Assembly (NCBI GenBank): GCA_015233725.1
Contig: JADFXD010000027.1
Span: 1 to 34,373, forward strand
Source of the DNA: Nitrospirota bacterium
GTDB taxonomy: Bacteria > Nitrospirota > Thermodesulfovibrionia > Thermodesulfovibrionales > Magnetobacteriaceae
DNA: 34,373 nucleotides
Reading direction: 5' to 3'
Below, piece by piece: positions 19,458-34,373 of this stretch; position 1 is the stretch's first letter; each line of letters begins with the position of its first letter. The notes beneath the pieces are model-generated. The model had not been told where the DNA came from. It did not search any database and was given only the letters and a program-made list of their open reading frames with translations. The translations under genes and the position numbers were made by a program.

Positions 19458-21988
19458 GGTTGTTATATAGCCCCTCCTTTGTCAGTTGTTTCTATACTCT
19501 GCTGGCTATTTTAGCTGCCAGTCGTTGGGAAGGCCATTTATTGCAAAGTTGCCACCTATTATGTTAATGCCATCCATGAGGTATAGGTAGACATCACCCG
19601 TTGCATTGTTCTGCCACACTATATCAGCCTTGCCATCACCGTTGTAATCCCCGACTGTCTTGATCTGCCAGTCGCTTGATACACCCTTTATCACATAACC
19701 GCCGCCTACTATGCTGGCGCCGTTCATCAACCATGTAGCAACATCGCCTGTTACACTGTCCTGCCACAGGATGTCAGCCTTGCCATCACCATCGAAGTCA
19801 TTGACTGCCTTCACCTGCCAGTTGCCAGGTATACCCTTTGCTATATAGCCTCCACCGACTATGTTTAAACCATCAAGCAGCCATACATATACATCGCCGG
19901 TCTTGGTGTTCTGCCACAGTATATCAGGCTTACCATCTCCATTAAAATCGGACACGGCCTTAATATCCCATTCTGCAGGCATGCCCTGTACTACATAACC
20001 ACCAGATGTTATCTTTGTTCCATCCAATAGCCATACATATATAGCGCCTGTTGAGGTGTTTCTCAACAAGATATCAGCCTTGCCATCACCGTTAAAATCA
20101 GAGACTGACTTTATTACCCATTCTTTAGCCAAGGCATTTACTATAGTGCCAGTAGACGTACGTGTTGTGCCATCCATGATCCAAAAAACAACCTGACCCG
20201 TATTGTTATTCTGCCAAACGATATCGCTCTTGCCATCGCCATCAATGTCGCCTACCCCTTTAACATCCCACTCTAATGATACATTCTTCATAACAACGTT
20301 ATTGTCAGATATGGATGCACCATTCATTAACCACATAACTACATCCCCAGATGTCGTACTGTGCCACAGCATATCGCTAGTGCCATCAGCATTAAAATCA
20401 TGGATGGCCTTCACGGGGACGGTAAACTCAACAGAAACGCTCTTTACATCAGTCATCTGCACCATGCACTCGTTACCCAACTCTGTATCACAGCCAGTCC
20501 ATCCCTTCAGTTGTGAGCCTGTATTAGCCGTGGCTGTCAGAATAACAGTTGTACCAACATTGTACGATGCTGTAGCTGTTTTGCCATTCCAGGAAAGACT
20601 CCCTGTAGATGCTGCTATTGTCCCACTACCAGTGCCTGTCTCAGACACCGTTAGGTTGACTAAACCTGGGGCGGTCTGCGTTACGGTAAAACTCGTCTGA
20701 CCAGATATGTTTATCAATCCTGTCCTTGAACCAGAGCCATTATTAGCTGATACCGAGTATACCACAGTACCATTGCCTGTACCTGAATTACCTGATTTTA
20801 TCGTCAACCAGGAAGAATCACTATTTGCCTTCCACTGACAAGTGCTGTCTGTTGTAACGATAAACGAATCATTACCAGAAGATGCTGAAAACGTCCTGCT
20901 TGTTGGGGTAATTGTATATGTACAGCCTGCATCCTGAGACACTGTAAAGGTCTGTCCGCCTATTGTAAGCGTACCTGTACGTGGTGCATTTGCCGTATTG
21001 GCCGCCACCGAGTACACAATCATACCACTTCCTGTAGCGGCACTGCCCGATGTTACCGTTATCCAGGTATTATTACTGGTAACTGCCCACTGACAAGATG
21101 AACCTGATGCTGTCACGCTTATACTATCACTACCGCCTGATGCAAGAAATGACTTGCCTGTCGGGCTTAACGTATAACTACAGCTTAAACCACTCTGCGT
21201 TACGGTAAACGTCTGCCCTGCTATAGTCATCGTACCAGTCCTGCTATTTGCTCCTGTATTTGCCGATACGGTGTAGCTCACGCTCCCGTTGCCATAAGTG
21301 ATACTCCCACTACCGCCACCCAATGTATTAATCTGTATCCATGTCGAATTGCTTATTGACTGCCATCCACATGTGCTGTTGGTAGATACGGTGATACTAT
21401 CAGTGCCACCCGACGTAGTGAATGACTTGCTAGTTGAGCTTAACGTGTAGGTGCAGTTGAGACCATCCTGCGTTACCGTAAGTGTCTGTCCCGCTATTGT
21501 TATCGTACCAGTACGCTGTGTTGTGCCTGTATTAGCCGACACCGTATAACTCATGCTACCACTACCTGTGCTGCCGGCATTAAATGTAATACCGTTAACC
21601 GTTATCCAGGATACGCTGCTTGTGGCTGTCCACCCACAGGTACCATTGGTGGTAACATTGACACTACCCGGGCCTCCTGATGAAGATAAATGGCTACTTA
21701 ATGCACTTAACGTGTAGCTGCAGCCGCCTCCATCCTGCGTTACCGTAAATGTCTGGTCTGCTACCGTTATTGTACCTGTCCTGGAGCTTGTGCCTGAGTT
21801 GGCCGCAACCGTGTAACTCACGCTGCCACTACCTGTACCTGAACCAGAGGTTACAGTTATCCAGCTAGCATGACTTAACGCCACCCATGTACATCCATTC
21901 GCTGTCACTATTATGCTATCACTACCACCTGACACCCCATAACTCTTGCTCGTCGGGTAAATAGACACACTCGTACATGATGATGTTG
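19458..21988 (-). repeat. 2.53 kb near-identical duplication, copy 1
   Basis: Bases 19458-21988 match 24229-26759 at a constant offset of 4771 with no gap. The visible differences are one base near 19496 (outside the coding region) and one at 21973 (a Thr/Met change). It covers the stop codon, a short downstream segment and the whole BACON to FG-GAP half of the gene. Confidence 0.95.
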
Positions 21989-24080
21989 GTGTCGGCGTTG
22001 GGGTTGGAGTAGGTGTTGGAGTCGGCGTTGGAGTAGTAGCCGGAGAGAATACGGCCACAATGTTATGAGGAGATGTAACATTCGTAATCGTATATGCTGT
22101 CCCACCCACTACCATCATCGTTACGTTTGTTCCGTTATCAATCAGCATTGACAGTGAGTATCCTGCCATAGGTGCAACTGTACAAACGGAGGTACCTCCA
22201 GAGGCAACTGTACTTGGGGTACAGGATATAGCGCCACTGCCTCCTGATACACTTGCCGCAATAGGATACGCTGCATCAAAGGACACCTGTAGGGTGTGAT
22301 TCAACAGTATATTACTCATCGTGTAAGTGGTACCGTTTACAAGAGTCGCCGTTACATCAACCCCGTTATCCGTAAATGTCTTAACAGCATATCCAGGCAG
22401 AAGCGTTATCGTGCACGTCTGAGTAGTAAAGGCGTTAAACAGTGCTCCAACAGTGGTACCACAACCTGAAGAGTAAGCACTAGCGCTGTCAGCGCCTGAG
22501 ACTGCATACTTGATCGTAAAGTGCCTGAGGGTAAAGTTCCCCCTCACGGTGTGTGACGCATTGATATTGGAGATTGTGTATGTCTGTGTAGAGGCTGGAT
22601 CACCAGAAGTAGTTACATCCACTCCATTATCATTCAGACCAGAGCCACTGGAGGTATCTATCTGATAACCGGTTGCAGGCGTTATAGTGCATGTAGAGCT
22701 TGCACCAATACCAGCGGTAACAGTTGATGGTGAACATGACACTGTGCCTGTATTATTTGATTTGCCTGTTATGGTGAACTGACCAGAACGTACCATCAAG
22801 AATCTCGAAGACGTTGTATCAAATTGTGTATTTACCAGGGCATTACTGCCTGATGACATATCTACGACAAACCTCTGGGTTGGGTCACGATCGGACGCAG
22901 TAGATGTCCAATAGGCGGCTGGTACGGCAACAGCGCTGCTAAACCCTGACGTCCTAAGCCATGCATCCTGAGAAATCTGTCCAAAGTTCATGAGGCTGAC
23001 CATCTCATTTACGTTGGGCATTCTCCAGTCCGTATAGCCGCAATAGCCATTGTTGTTATTGCTATTAGTTATGGCATCCATAGCGCTATTGTAGTCGCCA
23101 TATAAACCAGCGGTGGTATCACTGCCTGACCACACAAGCCCTGTATAGTTATCAGTTATACATGTCTTTGCATCACTCGCTGTTACCAGGGTAAACCTTG
23201 TTGCAGGTGGAGTCACACCTTGCAGCGTATCTCCATCCTGCCCGGTACCTGAACACGCAATAACTGAACCAGTTGCATTGTAACAGGTAGTCTGACCTGT
23301 CTGAGGTAAGATTGTTGTTGTACCACTTACAGGGATCAGATGACTGGAGTTGACATTTTTTGCAATAGCTACATGTGTATCGGTTATCATGTTAACCGCC
23401 AAGGCACTTGACGCAGTGCTGTTGCTCGTTGATGACCAGTATAACCCGATTGTAAGGTTAGAAAAGGAATTGTCTAATTTATTTCCATTACCTGGTGTAC
23501 CGGCTTGTGTTAGCCACATCACATTTGTCTGGGCTGTATTGTTTATACCTGCGGCGGAAGTCCAATTATAATAAGTAGGTGTACTCTCACCATGCCCCCT
23601 GTTGACAAGCGACATAATCTCAATTATATTTGGGAGCCTCCAGGTCGTAATACCAAGATACCCTGAGCCATCATAAGCGTTTAGGCATCCGACATACAAT
23701 AACGCGTTAGCCCAAGACACACCGCTGCCTGGTGCAATTCCACACACTATAGGTAAAGTGGTTGCATCCATCGGCCAAACCAGCCCTGTGGTATTATCAG
23801 TTATCGTACCGGCTGTTGGTCCGCTGGTGACAATGGAAAATCTTGTATTATCCCAGAACGCACCAGTTCTATAATACCCGTCCTGTCCAGCAATACTGCC
23901 GCCATTGCACGCTTGAACACTACCGGCTGTATCGAAACATAACTTTTGACCTGTCTGCAACGGAGTCGCAACATCTGCCCTGGCGATAACGGGTAAACAG
24001 ACCACCAGCATTGCAACAATCATCACATGAACACTGACAATATTTTTTAACACGTTGAACATCATGCCCCCTTGTTTCAT
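19506..24080 (-). CDS. Giant secreted protein: Lcl/DUF1566 x2, beta-repeats, five BACON domains, FG-GAP-like repeats
   Basis: The 1524-residue product starts with a signal peptide (about 1-36, cleavage after VIARA). Two Lcl/DUF1566 domains follow (about 42-255 and 262-435; WRLPNIIEIMSL and WRMPNVNEMVSL are their cores). Next come three InlB-B-like beta-repeats (CTPSTV...GYSL...DNG), a (TP)n linker near 685-699, and five BACON domains (about 703-1125; SWITVTSGSGTGSGSV, RTGTITV). One more beta-repeat precedes six calcium-loop repeats of the FG-GAP/VCBS type (DFNGDGKADILW, about 1211-1524). There is no visible sortase or other C-terminal anchor. It is likely an extracellular adhesin or carbohydrate-binding protein. 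Residues 704-1524 are identical to the neighbouring paralogue. GGAGG lies ten bases before the ATG. Confidence 0.85.
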   Translation of the reverse strand: MKQGGMMFNVLKNIVSVHVMIVAMLVVCLPVIARADVATPLQTGQKLCFDTAGSVQACNGGSIAGQDGYYRTGAFWDNTRFSIVTSGPTAGTITDNTTGLVWPMDATTLPIVCGIAPGSGVSWANALLYVGCLNAYDGSGYLGITTWRLPNIIEIMSLVNRGHGESTPTYYNWTSAAGINNTAQTNVMWLTQAGTPGNGNKLDNSFSNLTIGLYWSSTSNSTASSALAVNMITDTHVAIAKNVNSSHLIPVSGTTTILPQTGQTTCYNATGSVIACSGTGQDGDTLQGVTPPATRFTLVTASDAKTCITDNYTGLVWSGSDTTAGLYGDYNSAMDAITNSNNNNGYCGYTDWRMPNVNEMVSLMNFGQISQDAWLRTSGFSSAVAVPAAYWTSTASDRDPTQRFVVDMSSGSNALVNTQFDTTSSRFLMVRSGQFTITGKSNNTGTVSCSPSTVTAGIGASSTCTITPATGYQIDTSSGSGLNDNGVDVTTSGDPASTQTYTISNINASHTVRGNFTLRHFTIKYAVSGADSASAYSSGCGTTVGALFNAFTTQTCTITLLPGYAVKTFTDNGVDVTATLVNGTTYTMSNILLNHTLQVSFDAAYPIAASVSGGSGAISCTPSTVASGGTSVCTVAPMAGYSLSMLIDNGTNVTMMVVGGTAYTITNVTSPHNIVAVFSPATTPTPTPTPTPTPTPTPTSSCTSVSIYPTSKSYGVSGGSDSIIVTANGCTWVALSHASWITVTSGSGTGSGSVSYTVAANSGTSSRTGTITVADQTFTVTQDGGGCSYTLSALSSHLSSSGGPGSVNVTTNGTCGWTATSSVSWITVNGITFNAGSTGSGSMSYTVSANTGTTQRTGTITIAGQTLTVTQDGLNCTYTLSSTSKSFTTSGGTDSITVSTNSTCGWQSISNSTWIQINTLGGGSGSITYGNGSVSYTVSANTGANSRTGTMTIAGQTFTVTQSGLSCSYTLSPTGKSFLASGGSDSISVTASGSSCQWAVTSNNTWITVTSGSAATGSGMIVYSVAANTANAPRTGTLTIGGQTFTVSQDAGCTYTITPTSRTFSASSGNDSFIVTTDSTCQWKANSDSSWLTIKSGNSGTGNGTVVYSVSANNGSGSRTGLINISGQTSFTVTQTAPGLVNLTVSETGTGSGTIAASTGSLSWNGKTATASYNVGTTVILTATANTGSQLKGWTGCDTELGNECMVQMTDVKSVSVEFTVPVKAIHDFNADGTSDMLWHSTTSGDVVMWLMNGASISDNNVVMKNVSLEWDVKGVGDIDGDGKSDIVWQNNNTGQVVFWIMDGTTRTSTGTIVNALAKEWVIKSVSDFNGDGKADILLRNTSTGAIYVWLLDGTKITSGGYVVQGMPAEWDIKAVSDFNGDGKPDILWQNTKTGDVYVWLLDGLNIVGGGYIAKGIPGNWQVKAVNDFDGDGKADILWQDSVTGDVATWLMNGASIVGGGYVIKGVSSDWQIKTVGDYNGDGKADIVWQNNATGDVYLYLMDGINIIGGNFAINGLPNDWQLK

Positions 24081-24166
24081 ATTAATGGTACCTCCAAACT
24101 ATTTCCTTTATTTCAATCACATAAAATACGTGATATATTGATTCATTCATAAATAACCTGATATCT

Positions 24167-24210
24167 ACTATACATCACGCTGTGAGGGTACTTCTGTGAT
24201 CGCGATCACA
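24167..24210 (-). promoter_or_regulatory. CRP-type operator and class II promoter upstream of giant gene 1
   Basis: TGTGATCGCGATCACA (24195-24210) is a perfect 16-base palindrome with both TGTGA half-sites. On the minus strand a TATAGT -10 box lies at 24167-24172. The site centre is about 41-43 bases upstream of the expected transcription start, the geometry of class II CRP activation. The leader to the ATG at 24080 would be about 80 bases. Confidence 0.7.
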
Positions 24211-24228
24211 AAATTAAAAAAAAGGAGG

Positions 24229-26759
24229 GGTTGTTATATAGCCCCTCCTTTGTCAGTTGTTTCTATCCTCTGCTGGCTATTTTAGCTGCCAGTCGTTGGG
24301 AAGGCCATTTATTGCAAAGTTGCCACCTATTATGTTAATGCCATCCATGAGGTATAGGTAGACATCACCCGTTGCATTGTTCTGCCACACTATATCAGCC
24401 TTGCCATCACCGTTGTAATCCCCGACTGTCTTGATCTGCCAGTCGCTTGATACACCCTTTATCACATAACCGCCGCCTACTATGCTGGCGCCGTTCATCA
24501 ACCATGTAGCAACATCGCCTGTTACACTGTCCTGCCACAGGATGTCAGCCTTGCCATCACCATCGAAGTCATTGACTGCCTTCACCTGCCAGTTGCCAGG
24601 TATACCCTTTGCTATATAGCCTCCACCGACTATGTTTAAACCATCAAGCAGCCATACATATACATCGCCGGTCTTGGTGTTCTGCCACAGTATATCAGGC
24701 TTACCATCTCCATTAAAATCGGACACGGCCTTAATATCCCATTCTGCAGGCATGCCCTGTACTACATAACCACCAGATGTTATCTTTGTTCCATCCAATA
24801 GCCATACATATATAGCGCCTGTTGAGGTGTTTCTCAACAAGATATCAGCCTTGCCATCACCGTTAAAATCAGAGACTGACTTTATTACCCATTCTTTAGC
24901 CAAGGCATTTACTATAGTGCCAGTAGACGTACGTGTTGTGCCATCCATGATCCAAAAAACAACCTGACCCGTATTGTTATTCTGCCAAACGATATCGCTC
25001 TTGCCATCGCCATCAATGTCGCCTACCCCTTTAACATCCCACTCTAATGATACATTCTTCATAACAACGTTATTGTCAGATATGGATGCACCATTCATTA
25101 ACCACATAACTACATCCCCAGATGTCGTACTGTGCCACAGCATATCGCTAGTGCCATCAGCATTAAAATCATGGATGGCCTTCACGGGGACGGTAAACTC
25201 AACAGAAACGCTCTTTACATCAGTCATCTGCACCATGCACTCGTTACCCAACTCTGTATCACAGCCAGTCCATCCCTTCAGTTGTGAGCCTGTATTAGCC
25301 GTGGCTGTCAGAATAACAGTTGTACCAACATTGTACGATGCTGTAGCTGTTTTGCCATTCCAGGAAAGACTCCCTGTAGATGCTGCTATTGTCCCACTAC
25401 CAGTGCCTGTCTCAGACACCGTTAGGTTGACTAAACCTGGGGCGGTCTGCGTTACGGTAAAACTCGTCTGACCAGATATGTTTATCAATCCTGTCCTTGA
25501 ACCAGAGCCATTATTAGCTGATACCGAGTATACCACAGTACCATTGCCTGTACCTGAATTACCTGATTTTATCGTCAACCAGGAAGAATCACTATTTGCC
25601 TTCCACTGACAAGTGCTGTCTGTTGTAACGATAAACGAATCATTACCAGAAGATGCTGAAAACGTCCTGCTTGTTGGGGTAATTGTATATGTACAGCCTG
25701 CATCCTGAGACACTGTAAAGGTCTGTCCGCCTATTGTAAGCGTACCTGTACGTGGTGCATTTGCCGTATTGGCCGCCACCGAGTACACAATCATACCACT
25801 TCCTGTAGCGGCACTGCCCGATGTTACCGTTATCCAGGTATTATTACTGGTAACTGCCCACTGACAAGATGAACCTGATGCTGTCACGCTTATACTATCA
25901 CTACCGCCTGATGCAAGAAATGACTTGCCTGTCGGGCTTAACGTATAACTACAGCTTAAACCACTCTGCGTTACGGTAAACGTCTGCCCTGCTATAGTCA
26001 TCGTACCAGTCCTGCTATTTGCTCCTGTATTTGCCGATACGGTGTAGCTCACGCTCCCGTTGCCATAAGTGATACTCCCACTACCGCCACCCAATGTATT
26101 AATCTGTATCCATGTCGAATTGCTTATTGACTGCCATCCACATGTGCTGTTGGTAGATACGGTGATACTATCAGTGCCACCCGACGTAGTGAATGACTTG
26201 CTAGTTGAGCTTAACGTGTAGGTGCAGTTGAGACCATCCTGCGTTACCGTAAGTGTCTGTCCCGCTATTGTTATCGTACCAGTACGCTGTGTTGTGCCTG
26301 TATTAGCCGACACCGTATAACTCATGCTACCACTACCTGTGCTGCCGGCATTAAATGTAATACCGTTAACCGTTATCCAGGATACGCTGCTTGTGGCTGT
26401 CCACCCACAGGTACCATTGGTGGTAACATTGACACTACCCGGGCCTCCTGATGAAGATAAATGGCTACTTAATGCACTTAACGTGTAGCTGCAGCCGCCT
26501 CCATCCTGCGTTACCGTAAATGTCTGGTCTGCTACCGTTATTGTACCTGTCCTGGAGCTTGTGCCTGAGTTGGCCGCAACCGTGTAACTCACGCTGCCAC
26601 TACCTGTACCTGAACCAGAGGTTACAGTTATCCAGCTAGCATGACTTAACGCCACCCATGTACATCCATTCGCTGTCACTATTATGCTATCACTACCACC
26701 TGACACCCCATAACTCTTGCTCGTCGGGTAAATAGACACACTCATACATGATGATGTTG
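24229..26759 (-). repeat. 2.53 kb near-identical duplication, copy 2
   Basis: This is the partner of 19458-21988. Homology stops abruptly at codons for a Ser-rich linker, just before the (TP)n linker of the other gene. Upstream of that point the two genes differ in domain content. Beyond the coding region it begins in a GGTTGTTATATAGC segment found downstream of both genes. Confidence 0.95.
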
Positions 26760-28143
26760 ATACAGCAAAATCCGCAGCAACTGTATGATTTATTGCTACG
26801 CTATTAATGATATACTCGTTGTTGATTACAGAATTCATTACATTTACGCCATTGTCTGTAAGAGATGATAAGGCATAGCCTGCACTCGGTGCAAAAGTAC
26901 AAACAGAGCTATTGCCATATGCTACGACTGTTGGATCACACGTGATAGTCCCTTTGTAGCTTTGAATTACTACGGCATTTATAATATATGCCGCTTGAAA
27001 GCTTGCAATAACCGTGTGAGGTACTGTCACATTATTAAGTGTATACGTGTTGTTAACTACAGAACTAGTTACACTAGCACTATTGTCTATTAGAGACATC
27101 AAGACATAGCCTGAATTCGGTGTGACAGTACATACAGAATTCTGTCCACCTGAAACGGTCGATGGCGTACACGCTATACTACCATTACCACCACTAACCG
27201 ATCCTGTTATGGTGTATTGTTGTGCTTGTGAAGAAAACACGGTTATTGTAATATTCTGATTATCCACAATATATAGATTACCTGAACTACCTGCTGCTAT
27301 ACCAACAATATTACGAAATTGACCTGTTCCGTAGCCCCAGGAGCCAAAACCAGTTATATAGGTACCACTGGAACTATAAACTTGCACATTAGAACCATTG
27401 CCTAAAAGTACGTTATTTGAAATATCTACACTTATTGAGTTGCACCAGGATGACCACTGTAGGATAAAAGTACCTGTTGAATCAAATTTCTGCACCAAAC
27501 CATTGCCCTGATCTGCAACATAGACATCGCCTAAACTATCTACTGCTACACCAATAGGATTACTAAATTGACCGTTTCCATGACCGCCACCGCCCCACTG
27601 CGTTATATATGTGCCATTAAAGTCAAATTTCTGTATCCTATTATTACCTTGATCTACAACATATACATTGCCTGAACTATCTACTGCTATACCACGAGGC
27701 CCCCAAAATTGACCTTGTCCACTGCCATAACTACCCCACTGAGTTATAGTAGAATATGTGCCATTATCACTATAGCCAAATTTCTGTATCCTACTATTAC
27801 CTTGATCTACAACATATACATTGCCTGAACTATCTATTGCTACACCATTAGGACCCCAAAACTGACCGTTTCCACTGCCACCACTGCCCCACTGAGTTAT
27901 ATATGTGCCATTAGAGTCAAATTTCTGTATCCTATTATTATTTGTATCTGCGACATAGACATTGCCTGAACTATCCAATGCTATACCATTAGGCCAATTA
28001 AATTGACCGTTTCCATTACCAGAACTGCCCCACTGGGTTACATAGTTATACGTTCCCGCCGATACATTACCGACATTACCAAAAACAAACATCAGCAACA
28101 CAAGCAACACAAACAAGGCTACCAAGACACTCTTTCTTCTCAT
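24277..28143 (-). CDS. Giant secreted protein: NHL beta-propeller, beta-repeats, five BACON domains, FG-GAP-like repeats
   Basis: The start at 28143 (MRRKSVLVALFVLL) is chosen for its signal peptide and the AAAGGAGAG upstream; the open frame to 28245 runs into repeat copy G. The product is 1288 residues. After the signal (1-30) come about six NHL repeats (QWGS..GNGQF..P.GIA.DSSGNVYV.D..N.RIQKF), enough for one propeller (about 32-310). Two InlB-B-like beta-repeats follow (about 310-460). From residue 468 to the end it is identical to the 821-residue C-terminal half of the downstream paralogue. NHL propellers usually bind proteins, peptides or glycans. Secretion and a surface or matrix role are inferred. 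Confidence 0.85.
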   Translation of the reverse strand: MRRKSVLVALFVLLVLLMFVFGNVGNVSAGTYNYVTQWGSSGNGNGQFNWPNGIALDSSGNVYVADTNNNRIQKFDSNGTYITQWGSGGSGNGQFWGPNGVAIDSSGNVYVVDQGNSRIQKFGYSDNGTYSTITQWGSYGSGQGQFWGPRGIAVDSSGNVYVVDQGNNRIQKFDFNGTYITQWGGGGHGNGQFSNPIGVAVDSLGDVYVADQGNGLVQKFDSTGTFILQWSSWCNSISVDISNNVLLGNGSNVQVYSSSGTYITGFGSWGYGTGQFRNIVGIAAGSSGNLYIVDNQNITITVFSSQAQQYTITGSVSGGNGSIACTPSTVSGGQNSVCTVTPNSGYVLMSLIDNSASVTSSVVNNTYTLNNVTVPHTVIASFQAAYIINAVVIQSYKGTITCDPTVVAYGNSSVCTFAPSAGYALSSLTDNGVNVMNSVINNEYIINSVAINHTVAADFAVSTSSCMSVSIYPTSKSYGVSGGSDSIIVTANGCTWVALSHASWITVTSGSGTGSGSVSYTVAANSGTSSRTGTITVADQTFTVTQDGGGCSYTLSALSSHLSSSGGPGSVNVTTNGTCGWTATSSVSWITVNGITFNAGSTGSGSMSYTVSANTGTTQRTGTITIAGQTLTVTQDGLNCTYTLSSTSKSFTTSGGTDSITVSTNSTCGWQSISNSTWIQINTLGGGSGSITYGNGSVSYTVSANTGANSRTGTMTIAGQTFTVTQSGLSCSYTLSPTGKSFLASGGSDSISVTASGSSCQWAVTSNNTWITVTSGSAATGSGMIVYSVAANTANAPRTGTLTIGGQTFTVSQDAGCTYTITPTSRTFSASSGNDSFIVTTDSTCQWKANSDSSWLTIKSGNSGTGNGTVVYSVSANNGSGSRTGLINISGQTSFTVTQTAPGLVNLTVSETGTGSGTIAASTGSLSWNGKTATASYNVGTTVILTATANTGSQLKGWTGCDTELGNECMVQMTDVKSVSVEFTVPVKAIHDFNADGTSDMLWHSTTSGDVVMWLMNGASISDNNVVMKNVSLEWDVKGVGDIDGDGKSDIVWQNNNTGQVVFWIMDGTTRTSTGTIVNALAKEWVIKSVSDFNGDGKADILLRNTSTGAIYVWLLDGTKITSGGYVVQGMPAEWDIKAVSDFNGDGKPDILWQNTKTGDVYVWLLDGLNIVGGGYIAKGIPGNWQVKAVNDFDGDGKADILWQDSVTGDVATWLMNGASIVGGGYVIKGVSSDWQIKTVGDYNGDGKADIVWQNNATGDVYLYLMDGINIIGGNFAINGLPNDWQLK

Positions 28144-28230
28144 TCGTTTCTCTCTCCTTTGATTGAAATTTATCTTTAGCACCGTAAAACAGCGCCTGTT
28201 TTTATACATGCTCGTGGTTAAGTTAATATA

Positions 28231-28374
28231 TAAGTACCTGCCCATAATTAATTATATACACGCAAGAGGGAAAGAAAGGGGCGGCGGAGTTTCTTTGTCG
28301 CTCCAGGACGCTCCTGGCCCCCTTTAGAACCCCCTGCAAGGGGACCAGTGCCCTTGACCCCATAATGCTCAATC
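28231..28374 (+). repeat. Full-length dispersed boundary repeat (copy G) inside the leader of giant gene 2
   Basis: It shares TAAGTACCTGCCCATAAT and CCCATAATGCTCAATC ends with copies C and E, and the second stem GCAAGGGGACCAGTGCCCTTG with C. It lies between the CRP-type promoter (28434-28477) and the start codon at 28143, so transcripts must pass through it. On the minus strand it also contains a TATAAT close to its left end. Confidence 0.8.
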
Positions 28375-28480: not shown

Positions 28481-29173
28481 TTAAAACTTGTGAAGAAAAT
28501 TAATATTAAAGTGGATGGACTTGTTGGATAGTATGGATATATCGCCGTTTTTCCTCCACTCACCGATTACCCTGCTGACCGTCTCTCTCGTGATGCCGGT
28601 TATATCGGCAATATCCTGGTGGGTAAACTTCATGTTTATGGTTATACCTGTATCGGTGGTCGTTCCATACTTATCGACATTGACAAGGAAGAACATCATT
28701 ATGCGCCTGGCCGAGTTATCAAATGACAACATCTCACAGGTATTCCACATATCCCTGAGCCGAACACAGAAAAATTGCAGCAGATTATCAAGCACATTCT
28801 TCTGGGAGGAGATGATCGTATGAAAGTTATCTCTTTCAATCAGCGCCACCCTCGATGGCTCCATCGCCATAGCCGAGGCTGGACACTCCTTGCCGTCTAT
28901 TACGGATATCTCACCAAAGGAGTCGCCACTTTGGTGAATAGCGAATATTATCTCCTTGCCGTTTTCATCGCTCCTGACCATCTTTACTTTACCCCTGATC
29001 AATGAATAAAAAATCTCATTGGTATCCTCTGGATAAATAACCATCTCACCCTTTTTAAAGTTCTTTATGTCTACATAATTCAGGATGCTTGTCAACTCAC
29101 TGTCCGTTAGATTGTGAAACAACCTGACCTTTCGCAACTCCACGAATTTGCCTTCATGACTGCACTTTTGCAT
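28481..29173 (-). CDS. Crp/Fnr family transcription regulator
   Basis: The 230-residue protein has an N-terminal cyclic-nucleotide-binding-like beta-roll (about 15-120), a dimer helix (about 125-165) and a C-terminal winged helix (about 183-215). The recognition helix contains RETVSR (196-201), keeping the Arg-Glu-x3-Arg set that CRP uses to read TGTGA. The ligand pocket keeps Gly-Glu (87-88) but has ECPASA instead of the Arg-Ser that binds cAMP phosphate, so cAMP may not be the ligand. There is no Fnr-type cysteine cluster. AGGAGG precedes the ATG. It lies directly upstream of giant gene 2 and is the obvious candidate to control both giant genes. Confidence 0.9.
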   Translation of the reverse strand: MQKCSHEGKFVELRKVRLFHNLTDSELTSILNYVDIKNFKKGEMVIYPEDTNEIFYSLIRGKVKMVRSDENGKEIIFAIHQSGDSFGEISVIDGKECPASAMAMEPSRVALIERDNFHTIISSQKNVLDNLLQFFCVRLRDMWNTCEMLSFDNSARRIMMFFLVNVDKYGTTTDTGITINMKFTHQDIADITGITRETVSRVIGEWRKNGDISILSNKSIHFNINFLHKF

Positions 29174-31171: not shown

Positions 31172-32014
31172 TCAATGACCTGACGGAGGCAGTGAAAGCG
31201 GTGGAGGCGTAAACATCGGAGGTGGAGGTGTCGGCCTTGATGACTGAGGAGGCGGAGGTGGCGCACCTGTATGGGGCGGTGGTGTTGACGGTGGTGGATT
31301 GTGCATCACAGGGGGCGTCTGCATCATTGGTGGTGGAGGAGTATGTACCCCTGGTGGCGGAGTATGCATCACAGGAGGTGGAGTCTGTCCCATTGTTGGA
31401 GGCGGAGTTGGCCTCATTGGTGGTGGATTGTGCATCACAGGAGGCGGAGGTGGCACGTTTACATTAGGCGGTGGTGGTTGTAGCTCTCGCACTGGTGGCG
31501 GTGGCGGTTCTCGCCTATGTTGCTGCTGCACATCAGGCTCCATCATTGGTTGCGGTGGCATCTCCCGTCTATGTTGCGGTGGTACATCAGGTTGCATCAT
31601 TGGTGGAAGGGGCAGTATCAACGGTGGTACCTCTGGAGGTAGCGGTCTGTCTGTCAGCGCCTCGATGTCGCGTATGATGTTATCGATCTTTGATGACAGG
31701 AGCTCTCTTTCCTCATATGTGAGGAACCTCTTTGAGCGTTCTCGTCTTGCGGTCTCACCCCTGACCTTGTCAATCCTGCGTTGAAAGTTTACGACCTGCT
31801 TTTGTGAAAGCCATCCACCATCATCAGTATCATCGAGGACCCTCTGTGCATGTAGCAGTTTTTCCCCTATCACCGAATCCATTACCTCCTGAGCCAACAC
31901 AACATCAACTGGTAACAACGTCAGCGCCAATGCTGTCAATAGCGATACAAGCCCAGCGACTGTAAGCAGCGAATCCGATAATTTCAAATACCATTTGTTT
32001 AAAATCTGAATCAC
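31172..32014 (-). CDS. Secreted proline-rich protein
   Basis: A hydrophobic N-terminal signal (about 12-41, cleavage after VLAQ possible) is followed by a charged helical part (about 45-120). From about 125 to 280 comes a proline-rich tail with PPPPMM, PPVMHNPPP, MMQPDVPPQHRREMPP and MMEPDVQQQHRREPPP units. The function is unknown; such tails often span the periplasm or bind other proteins. The open frame begins at GTG 32014, but that codon lies inside the GGGAGGTG ribosome-binding sequence. The true start may be an ATT nine bases further on or another weak codon. Confidence 0.75.
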   Translation of the reverse strand: MIQILNKWYLKLSDSLLTVAGLVSLLTALALTLLPVDVVLAQEVMDSVIGEKLLHAQRVLDDTDDGGWLSQKQVVNFQRRIDKVRGETARRERSKRFLTYEERELLSSKIDNIIRDIEALTDRPLPPEVPPLILPLPPMMQPDVPPQHRREMPPQPMMEPDVQQQHRREPPPPPVRELQPPPPNVNVPPPPPVMHNPPPMRPTPPPTMGQTPPPVMHTPPPGVHTPPPPMMQTPPVMHNPPPSTPPPHTGAPPPPPQSSRPTPPPPMFTPPPLSLPPSGH

Positions 32015-32092: not shown

Positions 32093-33046
32093 TCAATCAA
32101 TCCCATAACACCACAGCACTTCGTACAGCATGACGGCCTCATTTATCCCCTTGAGGCATTTGGAGTCTAAATAACTTATCTTGAAGCATTCGTCGTTTTC
32201 TAGCAGTTCGTAAAACTGCCCTGTGATAACGATATGGTCAGGCTGAGTGTGGCTCTGTGCCCTCGCGGCCACGTTGACCACGTTTCCAAAGACGTCCTTA
32301 CCGTCCGGGTTACAAACGTTACCGGCGTTTATGATGGTTTCAAGGATTTCGTTATGACTGTTTATCCATCGTACTGCGGCTACTGTCCCTTTTGTCTGAA
32401 AGTATTTACACGAATCCTTCAGATCGGTAAACATGATCGCCATGAATCTGCGGCTTTCTTCCAGTAAATTGCCTTCATCACACCAGCCTGACAACTCTTG
32501 TGCGATATCATCCATATTGCCGGAGGTTATCCATTCGTTCTTTTTGTCTATCAGACCTTTCATATCCAGGATCACCTCAACGGCCTTTGTTAATGCAGCG
32601 AGGTCTATTTTCGCTGAGTTCATAGCGCGTCTTATGGATTCTTCCGGGCCTTTCAGGATTACGGCAAGCATATGAAACACAGATATCTCTGTTGCACCTG
32701 TAAGGGTTGCGAGTTTCTCCGCCAAGGCAAATACCCTCTTGCAATCAGCGCTCCGATGTATTACCTTTCCCGTCCTCTGGTAGTCACTCTTGCCAAGAAC
32801 CCCTCTGAGCGAACATCTGAGGGTTGTTGTGTCGATATTTAGCCTGGTAAAAAAATCATTTAGAGCCTTCAGCCCGGCCTTTATATCGCTGCCGATATCA
32901 GCCTCTTTAAAGACCTCGTCCAGCATATCCGCAAGTTTCAATATACCGATGAAAATATGTTCTTTTTCTATATATTTATACCTGGCATAGCCAGCCTCAT
33001 AAGCCGCTATCTGCCAGGTTAAGTCAAGTATCGGAGAGGGATTCAT
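32093..33046 (-). CDS. Clp_N-like domain fused to an incomplete nucleotide cyclase domain
   Basis: Residues 1-150 resemble two halves of a Clp N-terminal (substrate-binding) repeat domain (EKEHIFIGILKLADM, TEISVFHMLAVILKG). From 200 a class III adenylate/guanylate cyclase domain begins with FMAIMFTDLKDS, whose Asp208 is a metal-binding position. It then jumps from INAGN (residue 243) straight to VCNPDGKDVFGNVVNVAARAQS. The family's middle part, with GG..(I/V)K..GD (second metal Asp) and the helix after it, is absent, although the frame stays open. The protein is therefore probably not catalytically active. It follows the kinase-TPR gene by 76 bases and is probably in the same transcript. Confidence 0.75.
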   Translation of the reverse strand: MNPSPILDLTWQIAAYEAGYARYKYIEKEHIFIGILKLADMLDEVFKEADIGSDIKAGLKALNDFFTRLNIDTTTLRCSLRGVLGKSDYQRTGKVIHRSADCKRVFALAEKLATLTGATEISVFHMLAVILKGPEESIRRAMNSAKIDLAALTKAVEVILDMKGLIDKKNEWITSGNMDDIAQELSGWCDEGNLLEESRRFMAIMFTDLKDSCKYFQTKGTVAAVRWINSHNEILETIINAGNVCNPDGKDVFGNVVNVAARAQSHTQPDHIVITGQFYELLENDECFKISYLDSKCLKGINEAVMLYEVLWCYGID

Positions 33047-33122: not shown

Positions 33123-34307
33123 TTACCGCTGCCCTTTAAGTTCATTAATGACTGCTCTTACTGCTTCAACATGATCGGCATAATAATGAGGTGGTGCGTA
33201 TTTTATAAAATTCTCAAATTCCACGATAGCCTCATCAATCAGCCCTTTGTCTAATAGAACAACTCCCAGATTGCAGTAAGCCTCTGCATACTCAGGATTA
33301 ATATCGACGACTTTTCGGTATTCCACGATAGCCTCGTCAATCAGCCCTTTGTCTGATAGAGCAATCCCCAGATTGTAGTGAGCATTTTCATCCTCAGGAT
33401 TAATATCAACGGCGTTTTGGTATTCCCCGATAGCCTCGTCAATCAGTCTTTTATCTTTCAGGGCAATTTCCAGATTATTGTGAGCATTTGCATCCTCAGG
33501 ATTAATCTTGATGGCTTTTCGGTATTCCCCGATAGCCTCATCAATCAGTCTTTTGCCTTTTAGGGCAACCCCCAGATTATTGTGAGCATTTGCATCCTCA
33601 GGGTTGATCTTGATGGCTTTTCGATGTTCCACGATAGCCTCATCAATCAGCCCCAGATTGCTTAATGAGACTCCCTTATTAAAAAGTTCCCAGGCCTCAA
33701 GCTCTTTTGATTGCGGAGGCTTTGGTATAGATTCGCCTACATACTTCCTGTATAGGGACTCTAACTCCATTCTTAATTCATTAAATCCCCTGTACCTGCT
33801 ATTGGGTGATTTTTCAAGGCATTTGGTTATTATGGGAAACAACTCCGAATCGATGCCCCGAATTTTATATCTCTCATGAAATCCCTTCCACTCGCTAAAT
33901 CTTATCTGCATTGGCAGATCAAAAGGTAATCGGCCTCCGCTTACCATCTGATACATCACTATTGCAAAACTGTATATATCGCTCCTGACGTCAGCCTTTC
34001 CATCAAATTGTTCCGGCGCCATATAGAGGACTGTGCCGGCGCGTACTTCCTCTTTGGCGTTAAAGTCTTTCGTAAAATTTACACCTTGCAATAATCCGGC
34101 AAGGCCAAAATCGGCTACCTTTAATGTCTTATCGCTTGTTATCATGATGTTGTCTGGCTTTATATCCCTGTGCGGCGTTACCCCTCTGGATACGGCATAC
34201 TCCATAGCATAGCAAAATTGAATAGACCAGGTTAATGCTTGTCTAAGCGATATTGGGCCGTTAAGATATTGAGTCAGGGTGTTTCTTCCTTCCTGATCGG
34301 GCGCCAC
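33123..34307 (-). CDS. Ser/Thr protein kinase-TPR protein lacking its N-lobe
   Basis: The 394-residue reading starts at a GTG (34307) with AGGA nine bases upstream. Catalytic-lobe motifs are intact: HRDIKPDN (46-53), VADFGLAG (64-71), YMAPEQ (95-100) and DIYSFAIVMYQMVSGG. The glycine-rich loop and the VAxK lysine that bind ATP are missing, because a TAA lies in frame about 11 codons before the GTG. Residues about 205-390 are five to six TPRs encoded by near-identical 102-base units. It may be a truncated or frameshifted gene whose N-lobe lies beyond the window, or a pseudokinase scaffold. Confidence 0.75.
   Translation of the reverse strand: MAPDQEGRNTLTQYLNGPISLRQALTWSIQFCYAMEYAVSRGVTPHRDIKPDNIMITSDKTLKVADFGLAGLLQGVNFTKDFNAKEEVRAGTVLYMAPEQFDGKADVRSDIYSFAIVMYQMVSGGRLPFDLPMQIRFSEWKGFHERYKIRGIDSELFPIITKCLEKSPNSRYRGFNELRMELESLYRKYVGESIPKPPQSKELEAWELFNKGVSLSNLGLIDEAIVEHRKAIKINPEDANAHNNLGVALKGKRLIDEAIGEYRKAIKINPEDANAHNNLEIALKDKRLIDEAIGEYQNAVDINPEDENAHYNLGIALSDKGLIDEAIVEYRKVVDINPEYAEAYCNLGVVLLDKGLIDEAIVEFENFIKYAPPHYYADHVEAVRAVINELKGQR
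33221..33730 (-). repeat. Tandem 102-base units encoding TPRs
   Basis: The segment CGATAGCCTC(A/G)TCAATCAG recurs at an exact 102-base spacing (near 33221, 33323, 33425, 33527 and 33629), matching the 34-residue TPR unit. DNA-level similarity suggests recent expansion, or homogenisation between units. Confidence 0.8.
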
Positions 34308-34373
34308 AAACTCACATCCTACTTTGACAATGTCATATTAGAGTAAAATCGGATATTTAGTGGATTAACATGT

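Follow-up and report, generated by a model that had tools for sequence, protein, structure and literature searches.

A Clp_N- and cyclase-like gene of a Nitrospirota bacterium probably derives by deletion from an unfoldase–cyclase fusion

The 317-aa open reading frame at 32093–33046 on the reverse strand of the window (the whole 34,373-nt stretch analysed here, which is an entire contig, C123, of a 3.32-Mb Nitrospirota genome assembled in 168 contigs and 88.62% complete) probably arose from a Clp_N-AAA+-AAA+-cyclase fusion by deletion and most likely no longer does the job of its parent; we give this reading a probability of about 0.6. Compared with its closest relative, a protein of the genome designated G006, it lacks both a AAA+ motor and the core of the cyclase domain. 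Because the reading frame survived these losses and the adjacent upstream kinase gene contains a repeat end, the locus is most likely a recently dismantled kinase/unfoldase-cyclase operon, in which the gene is probably being lost and not becoming a new sensor. Its features are listed here, with the basis of each in brackets.

32093..33046, reverse strand: 317-aa ORF with a Clp_N-like region and two pieces of a class III cyclase domain (ORF list, Pfam, alignment)
32576..33046, reverse strand: N-terminal Clp_N-like region, residues 1–157, 68% identical to G006 (alignment)
32568..32580, reverse strand: junction 1, about 1.83 kb (ClpB/ClpC-type AAA+ core) absent relative to G006 (DNA alignment)
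32333..32560, reverse strand: linker and first cyclase piece with FTD, residues 163–238, 73% identical to G006 (alignment)
about 32328..32338, reverse strand: junction 2, 165 nt (55 codons) of the cyclase core absent relative to G006 (DNA alignment)
32111..32329, reverse strand: second cyclase piece, NAGNVCNPDGKDVFGNVVNVAAR..., residues 240–312, 76% identical to G006 (Pfam, alignment)
33123..34307, reverse strand: Ser/Thr kinase C-lobe and TPR repeats, N-lobe missing (Pfam, homology)
34323..34373, no strand assigned: 51-bp repeat end with the terminus ATATGACATTGTCAAA, common to five contig ends (exact matching)

Pfam recognised two parts of the protein: Clp_N (PF02861), the domain expected of a ClpB/ClpC AAA+ unfoldase, at residues 109–160 (E 2.8e-6; 27.8 bits, cut-off 20.7), and positions 124–177 only of the 183-position cyclase profile, at residues 251–306 (E 1e-9). 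AAA+ NTPase modules and D2-small gave no Pfam hit in the protein and are absent from it by alignment. The reading frame is open across all 317 codons, with neither a stop nor a frameshift. The evidence points to a small Nitrospirota family that joins a Clp-type unfoldase and a nucleotide cyclase in one protein.

A preliminary description of this gene had noted that the FTD metal site passes in frame into VCNPDGKDVFGNVVNVAAR without the segment of the second metal aspartate and that both flanks are conserved, and our alignment to the 976-aa protein of G006 bears this out. Sized against this full-length homologue, the gap is 165 nt or 55 codons, and chance is not an issue because the flanking pieces are 73% and 76% identical to G006. 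The missing segment extends from VIKQHNGNVVKKIGD, which contains the second metal Asp, to HHVRIS and includes the Lys and Asp of KKIGD; the cyclase region of G006 is uninterrupted (FTD...KKIGDAF...DVFGNVVNVAAR), whereas the window protein lacks the 55 codons preceding NAG. With residues of both proteins assigned by alignment to the metal Asp, Lys, Asn and Arg classes, just one of the two metal-binding aspartates of an active class III cyclase is present (D208, in FTD), the other lying within the missing codons. The transition-state Asn and Arg are in place (N258 and R262 of VNVAAR, invariant in a 4-row alignment), and DVFG is retained as well. The residue classes themselves are those of class III cyclases as given in PMC4886424. 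Around the join, the G006 borders share just AT-x-AA, a microhomology too weak to claim, and no long repeat is common to both borders in G006. The 80 nt following the junction (window 32250–32329) match G006 at 77 of 80 positions, compared with 81.5% across the aligned gene, a value equalled in 84 of 5000 codon shuffles; strong protein conservation there may account for it, as might gene conversion.

The same comparison revealed a larger in-frame loss at 32568–32580, which had been overlooked. Between Clp_N and cyclase, G006 has 1824–1836 additional nucleotides (about 610 codons) that encode a ClpB/ClpC-type double AAA+ motor, consisting of two AAA+ modules, a lid and D2-small. A Clp_N-cyclase protein, which had been assumed to be the full-length form, is thus not what the closest relative has: G006 is Clp_N-AAA+-AAA+-cyclase. 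Between the borders of junction 1 lies a 12-nt island, TTGAGGTGATCC, which, in the same codon phase and with one mismatch, matches the beginning of the first AAA+ module, as closely as did 2 of 500 mononucleotide shuffles. The island may be a remnant of that beginning and, if real, would split junction 1 into two losses of 162 and 1662 nt. With the G006 protein as query, no close copies of the missing parts were found elsewhere in the window's own assembly (88.62% complete): this locus was recovered in three pieces, and the other AAA+ and cyclase matches were 42–49% and 26–33% identical, respectively.

From a 4-row alignment, AlphaFold modelled the uninterrupted G006 cyclase with a modest mean pLDDT of 60.1, and this model matches class III cyclases in the PDB, Ma1120 being the best (E 8.8e-11). 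Its strands 57–63 and 66–71 and its helix 74–93 sit in the segment absent from the window, and, judged by this model, the two remaining pieces of the cyclase are not expected to fold into the usual palm. An equally shallow 4-row alignment gave the window protein a mean pLDDT of 40.8, with 234 of 317 residues below 50 and no strand at FTD; this low score is no proof of misfolding because the model is poor throughout, the Clp_N part included.

Directly upstream, DNA homology of the kinase gene to its counterpart in G015 ends at 34320, beside the repeat end. Contigs C101 and C121 each carry an exact copy of the 51-bp sequence at one end, and the copies at the ends of C27 and C46 lack one or two of its outer bases; the inner 32 bp are exact in all five contig ends and the flanks differ among them. 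Contig C58 starts with a different sequence yet contains ATATGACATTGTCAAA, as if it were the other end of the element. At the end of C46 (L123), a repeat end similar to that of the window adjoins an ORF that by eye resembles a transposase fragment. Up to three mismatches allowed, the repeat end was found in none of the 18 other genomes of the family. A close copy of the kinase N-lobe was not found elsewhere in the assembly, where the remaining kinase matches are 25–37% identical. The kinase gene therefore combines a multicopy element end with an abrupt loss of homology, as in genes disrupted by insertion sequences, and the repeat at 34323–34373, known here from its end only, looks like the end of an insertion sequence inside this gene. 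The contig stops within the repeat, 1.3 kb upstream of the start of the 317-aa gene. In PADLOC, many kinase models match the kinase remnant and none matches the window protein; weak PycC matches were obtained for the G006 and G001 proteins, and AAA+-type models for G006.

Elsewhere in the window, a 280-aa ORF at 31172–32014 has a strongly proline-rich C-terminal half and matches no family above its cut-off, and a Crp-family regulator with a cyclic-nucleotide-binding domain is encoded at 28481–29173, approximately 3 kb downstream of the broken cyclase gene. Two adjoining large proteins (1524 and 1322 aa; 19506–28245), whose C-terminal parts carry BACON and FG-GAP in the same order, are probably a partial duplication.

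The family was surveyed with a Clp_N profile, A1. With an E limit of 0.001, it detected 101 genomes among the 230 of the class; the weaker hits are mostly in frames near 880 residues long, which are taken to be ordinary ClpB. A cut at about 1e-18, chosen after the list was seen, left 12 genomes, seven of which match by construction since they supplied the rows of the profile (the window, G006, G093, G001, G013, G014 and G011); the six other than the window had first been found with the window protein alone (E 2.8e-60 to 2.0e-6). G166 (5.2e-11, a 71-aa frame) and G167 (1.4e-8) were dropped after inspection of the ORFs, and G164 is cut by a contig end. At E 0.01, Pfam misses the Clp_N region of G011. 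A 4-row profile, A2, matched at 1e-10 in 9 of 395 genomes of a partial draw from the phylum, all of them in the window's class. Against genome contigs, the window protein alone as query gave no relative and the 4-row Clp_N alignment gave four. By identity and tree path, the window protein is nearest to G006 (66–71%, the next being 37–38%), the Clp_N tree being used for nearest-neighbour distance only as it has no well-supported branch.

Cyclase remains occur in seven of the 12 genomes (the window, G006, G093, G001, G013, G011 and G069), and the cyclase middle is absent from the window protein only. The short form that would have spoken against a recent deletion was thus not found among these members: none of the other six cyclase-bearing ones lacks this segment. 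In G013, substitutions have removed the second Asp of the cyclase as well as its Asn. Both AAA+ modules are present in two of these seven (G006 and G093), one in G069, in broken frames, and none in four, which besides the window are G001 (462 aa), G013 (504 aa) and G011 (379 aa). No cyclase hit was obtained for G186 or, among the matches listed, for G181, G224 and G014; the listed matches include both AAA+ modules in G181 and G224, one in G186, and AAA modules with an M41 peptidase in G014. These listings covered hits to E 1e-10 for G181 and G224 and 25 of 26 families for G014. The G014 protein is a single 1185-aa chain (L037:6154–9711) with a Clp_N region, AAA_2, AAA and Peptidase_M41, and its gene adjoins a kinase with WD40 and MORN repeats. 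A same-strand upstream kinase gene is found in six of the 12 genomes, adjacent in the window, G001, G093 and G014 and at a distance of 1.9 kb in G181 and 3.7 kb in G164; the neighbours examined were those of the genomes other than G006, G186 and G069, and the one examined in G013 matched nothing at 1e-10. In G011 (L038:5493–10125, Clp_N-cyclase) and G224 (L080:5768–11737, Clp_N-AAA+), the second gene upstream is HSP70-like, with one ORF in between in each case, and this arrangement is possibly a chaperone cluster.

Between the window gene and G006, dS is 0.40 and dN 0.167 (dN/dS 0.41); by part, dN/dS is 0.44 for Clp_N, 0.29 for linker and FTD, and 0.63 for the cyclase end, where dS is just 0.23. 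Derived amino-acid changes numbered 27 in the window and 14 in G006 with G001 as outgroup (49 unresolved, two-sided P 0.060) and 24 and 12 with G093 (53 unresolved, P 0.065), an excess on the window branch that is not significant. By part, the window:G006 counts were 14:12 (Clp_N), 6:1 (linker and FTD) and 6:0 (cyclase end) with G001, and 14:6, 4:4 and 4:2 with G093; among the 53 positions where three outgroups agree, the window has a different residue at 10 and G006 at 6, with 5 in common. The kinase remnant has a dN/dS of 0.25 (C-lobe) and 0.56 (TPR part) relative to G015 and no acceleration on its branch (C-lobe 12:11 and 7:11, TPR part 7:12 and 4:13). In neutral simulations, zero stops had probabilities of 0.006, 0.064 and 0.23 at 0.2, 0.1 and 0.05 substitutions per site, so zero stops are unlikely after long neutral drift and constraint would have had to end recently. 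Every gap is a multiple of three (165 and 1824–1836 nt, or 162, 1662 and 165 nt if the island is real), for which frame-blind deletion gives a probability of 1/9 to 1/27. Since both genes were constrained through much of their history, either they were dismantled recently or what remains is still of use.

A recent deletion, one of the two origins considered in the preliminary description, fits the uninterrupted form in the closest relative, the kept frame without a stop and the presence of the cyclase middle in six of six other cyclase-bearing members. The other, repurposing as a non-catalytic sensor, is unsupported. It would agree with a frame and sequence that were constrained for much of the branch, but the gap removes not just a metal ligand but part of the cyclase core, namely two strands and one helix, the AAA+ motor is gone as well and the upstream kinase gene ends at the repeat end. 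A related and possible, albeit unlikely, explanation is a selected mini-protein, which lost motor and cyclase core but kept a use: it might, for instance, bind clients or partners of the genome's other Clp unfoldases as a free Clp_N adaptor or decoy, or act together with the kinase. The frame preserved across two or three gaps without stops, the AAA+-less forms in G001, G013 and G011 and a kinase C-lobe under constraint until recently would suit such a protein; on the other hand, no other cyclase-bearing member has its cyclase core removed, the kinase remnant ends at the repeat end, the window branch has more rather than fewer changes and the cyclase pieces should not yield the usual palm. Stepwise in-frame loss of parts could also have occurred because Clp_N itself is useful: the window protein and those of G001, G013 and G011 would then each have been converted, in some cases independently, from an unfoldase-cyclase fusion into a Clp_N adaptor without a motor. 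We regard this as a rather doubtful extension; if true, the window protein would be the barest form, acting on the other Clp machines of the cell.

Collapsed full-length or mixed-strain reads near a repeat contig end could have dropped both stretches during assembly or binning, and the fragmented, incomplete assembly and the contig end in a repeat so close to the gene invite this suspicion. Such an artefact is nevertheless improbable, as the internal gaps preserve the frame, the missing parts have no close copies elsewhere in the assembly and, for junction 2 only, the borders in G006 have no long repeat in common. Finally, it is extremely improbable that the window carries an old natural short form common to the family: three other cyclase-bearing members are also devoid of AAA+ modules, but the window protein is nearest to full-length G006 and not to the short forms, in a tree without a well-supported branch, and G001 and G013 retain D2-small and a full-length cyclase region, both missing here.

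Under the preferred reading of a dismantled fusion, the parent would have joined a Clp-type unfoldase motor to a class III adenylyl-cyclase-like domain, as in G006, and might have made cAMP output depend on the state of the unfoldase or chaperone. On the branch leading to the window, motor and 55-codon cyclase core would then have been lost in frame, and an element, putatively an insertion sequence, would have landed with its end in the kinase gene. Any remaining product would presumably be Clp_N with a tail unable to form the usual cyclase fold, lacking ATPase and cyclase activity; the order of events, their recency and the loss of function are what we infer from the comparison with G006. As one locus the finding is modest; it corrects the reading of this locus, which in place of a repurposed sensor probably holds a dismantled fusion. 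Comparing family members that have or lack the motor, and whose cyclase sites look intact or are degraded, would allow the purpose of the fusion to be tested.

In the open-licence PMC literature, we found no papers on Clp_N, ClpB or ClpC fused to an adenylate, guanylate or class III cyclase, on a Magnetobacterium casense adenylate cyclase, or on in-frame deletion with short repeats; the short available text of PMC2447327, on class III cyclases, contains no Clp- word and AAA in a reference only. Among known systems, ClpB/ClpC unfoldases have Clp_N in common with the window protein, and their AAA+ core is present in G006, whereas the window protein has no ATPase part. Class III nucleotide cyclases such as Ma1120 and Rv1900c are matched by the G006 cyclase model; compared with them, the window protein lacks the second metal Asp, the preceding Lys and the segment between. 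The protein of Candidatus Magnetobacterium casense MYR-1 (G001, a genome of the window's genus; 462 aa, Clp_N-D2-small-cyclase) resembles that of the window in having no AAA+ modules, and its gene likewise lies directly downstream of a Ser/Thr kinase-TPR gene, but it keeps D2-small and a complete cyclase region and is just 37% identical. The closest counterpart is the 976-aa protein of Nitrospirae bacterium nDJH13bin3 (G006; JADFXJ010000001.1, L032:6493–9423, reverse strand), which is 71% identical over the shared parts. In Pfam it has AAA, AAA_lid_9, AAA_2, ClpB_D2-small and, over residues 810–971, Guanylate_cyc, whereas the window protein is without any AAA+ domain; unlike the latter, it retains the AAA+ core and the 55 cyclase codons and, by alignment, both metal Asp residues, KKIGD, DVFG and the Asn and Arg of VNVAAR.
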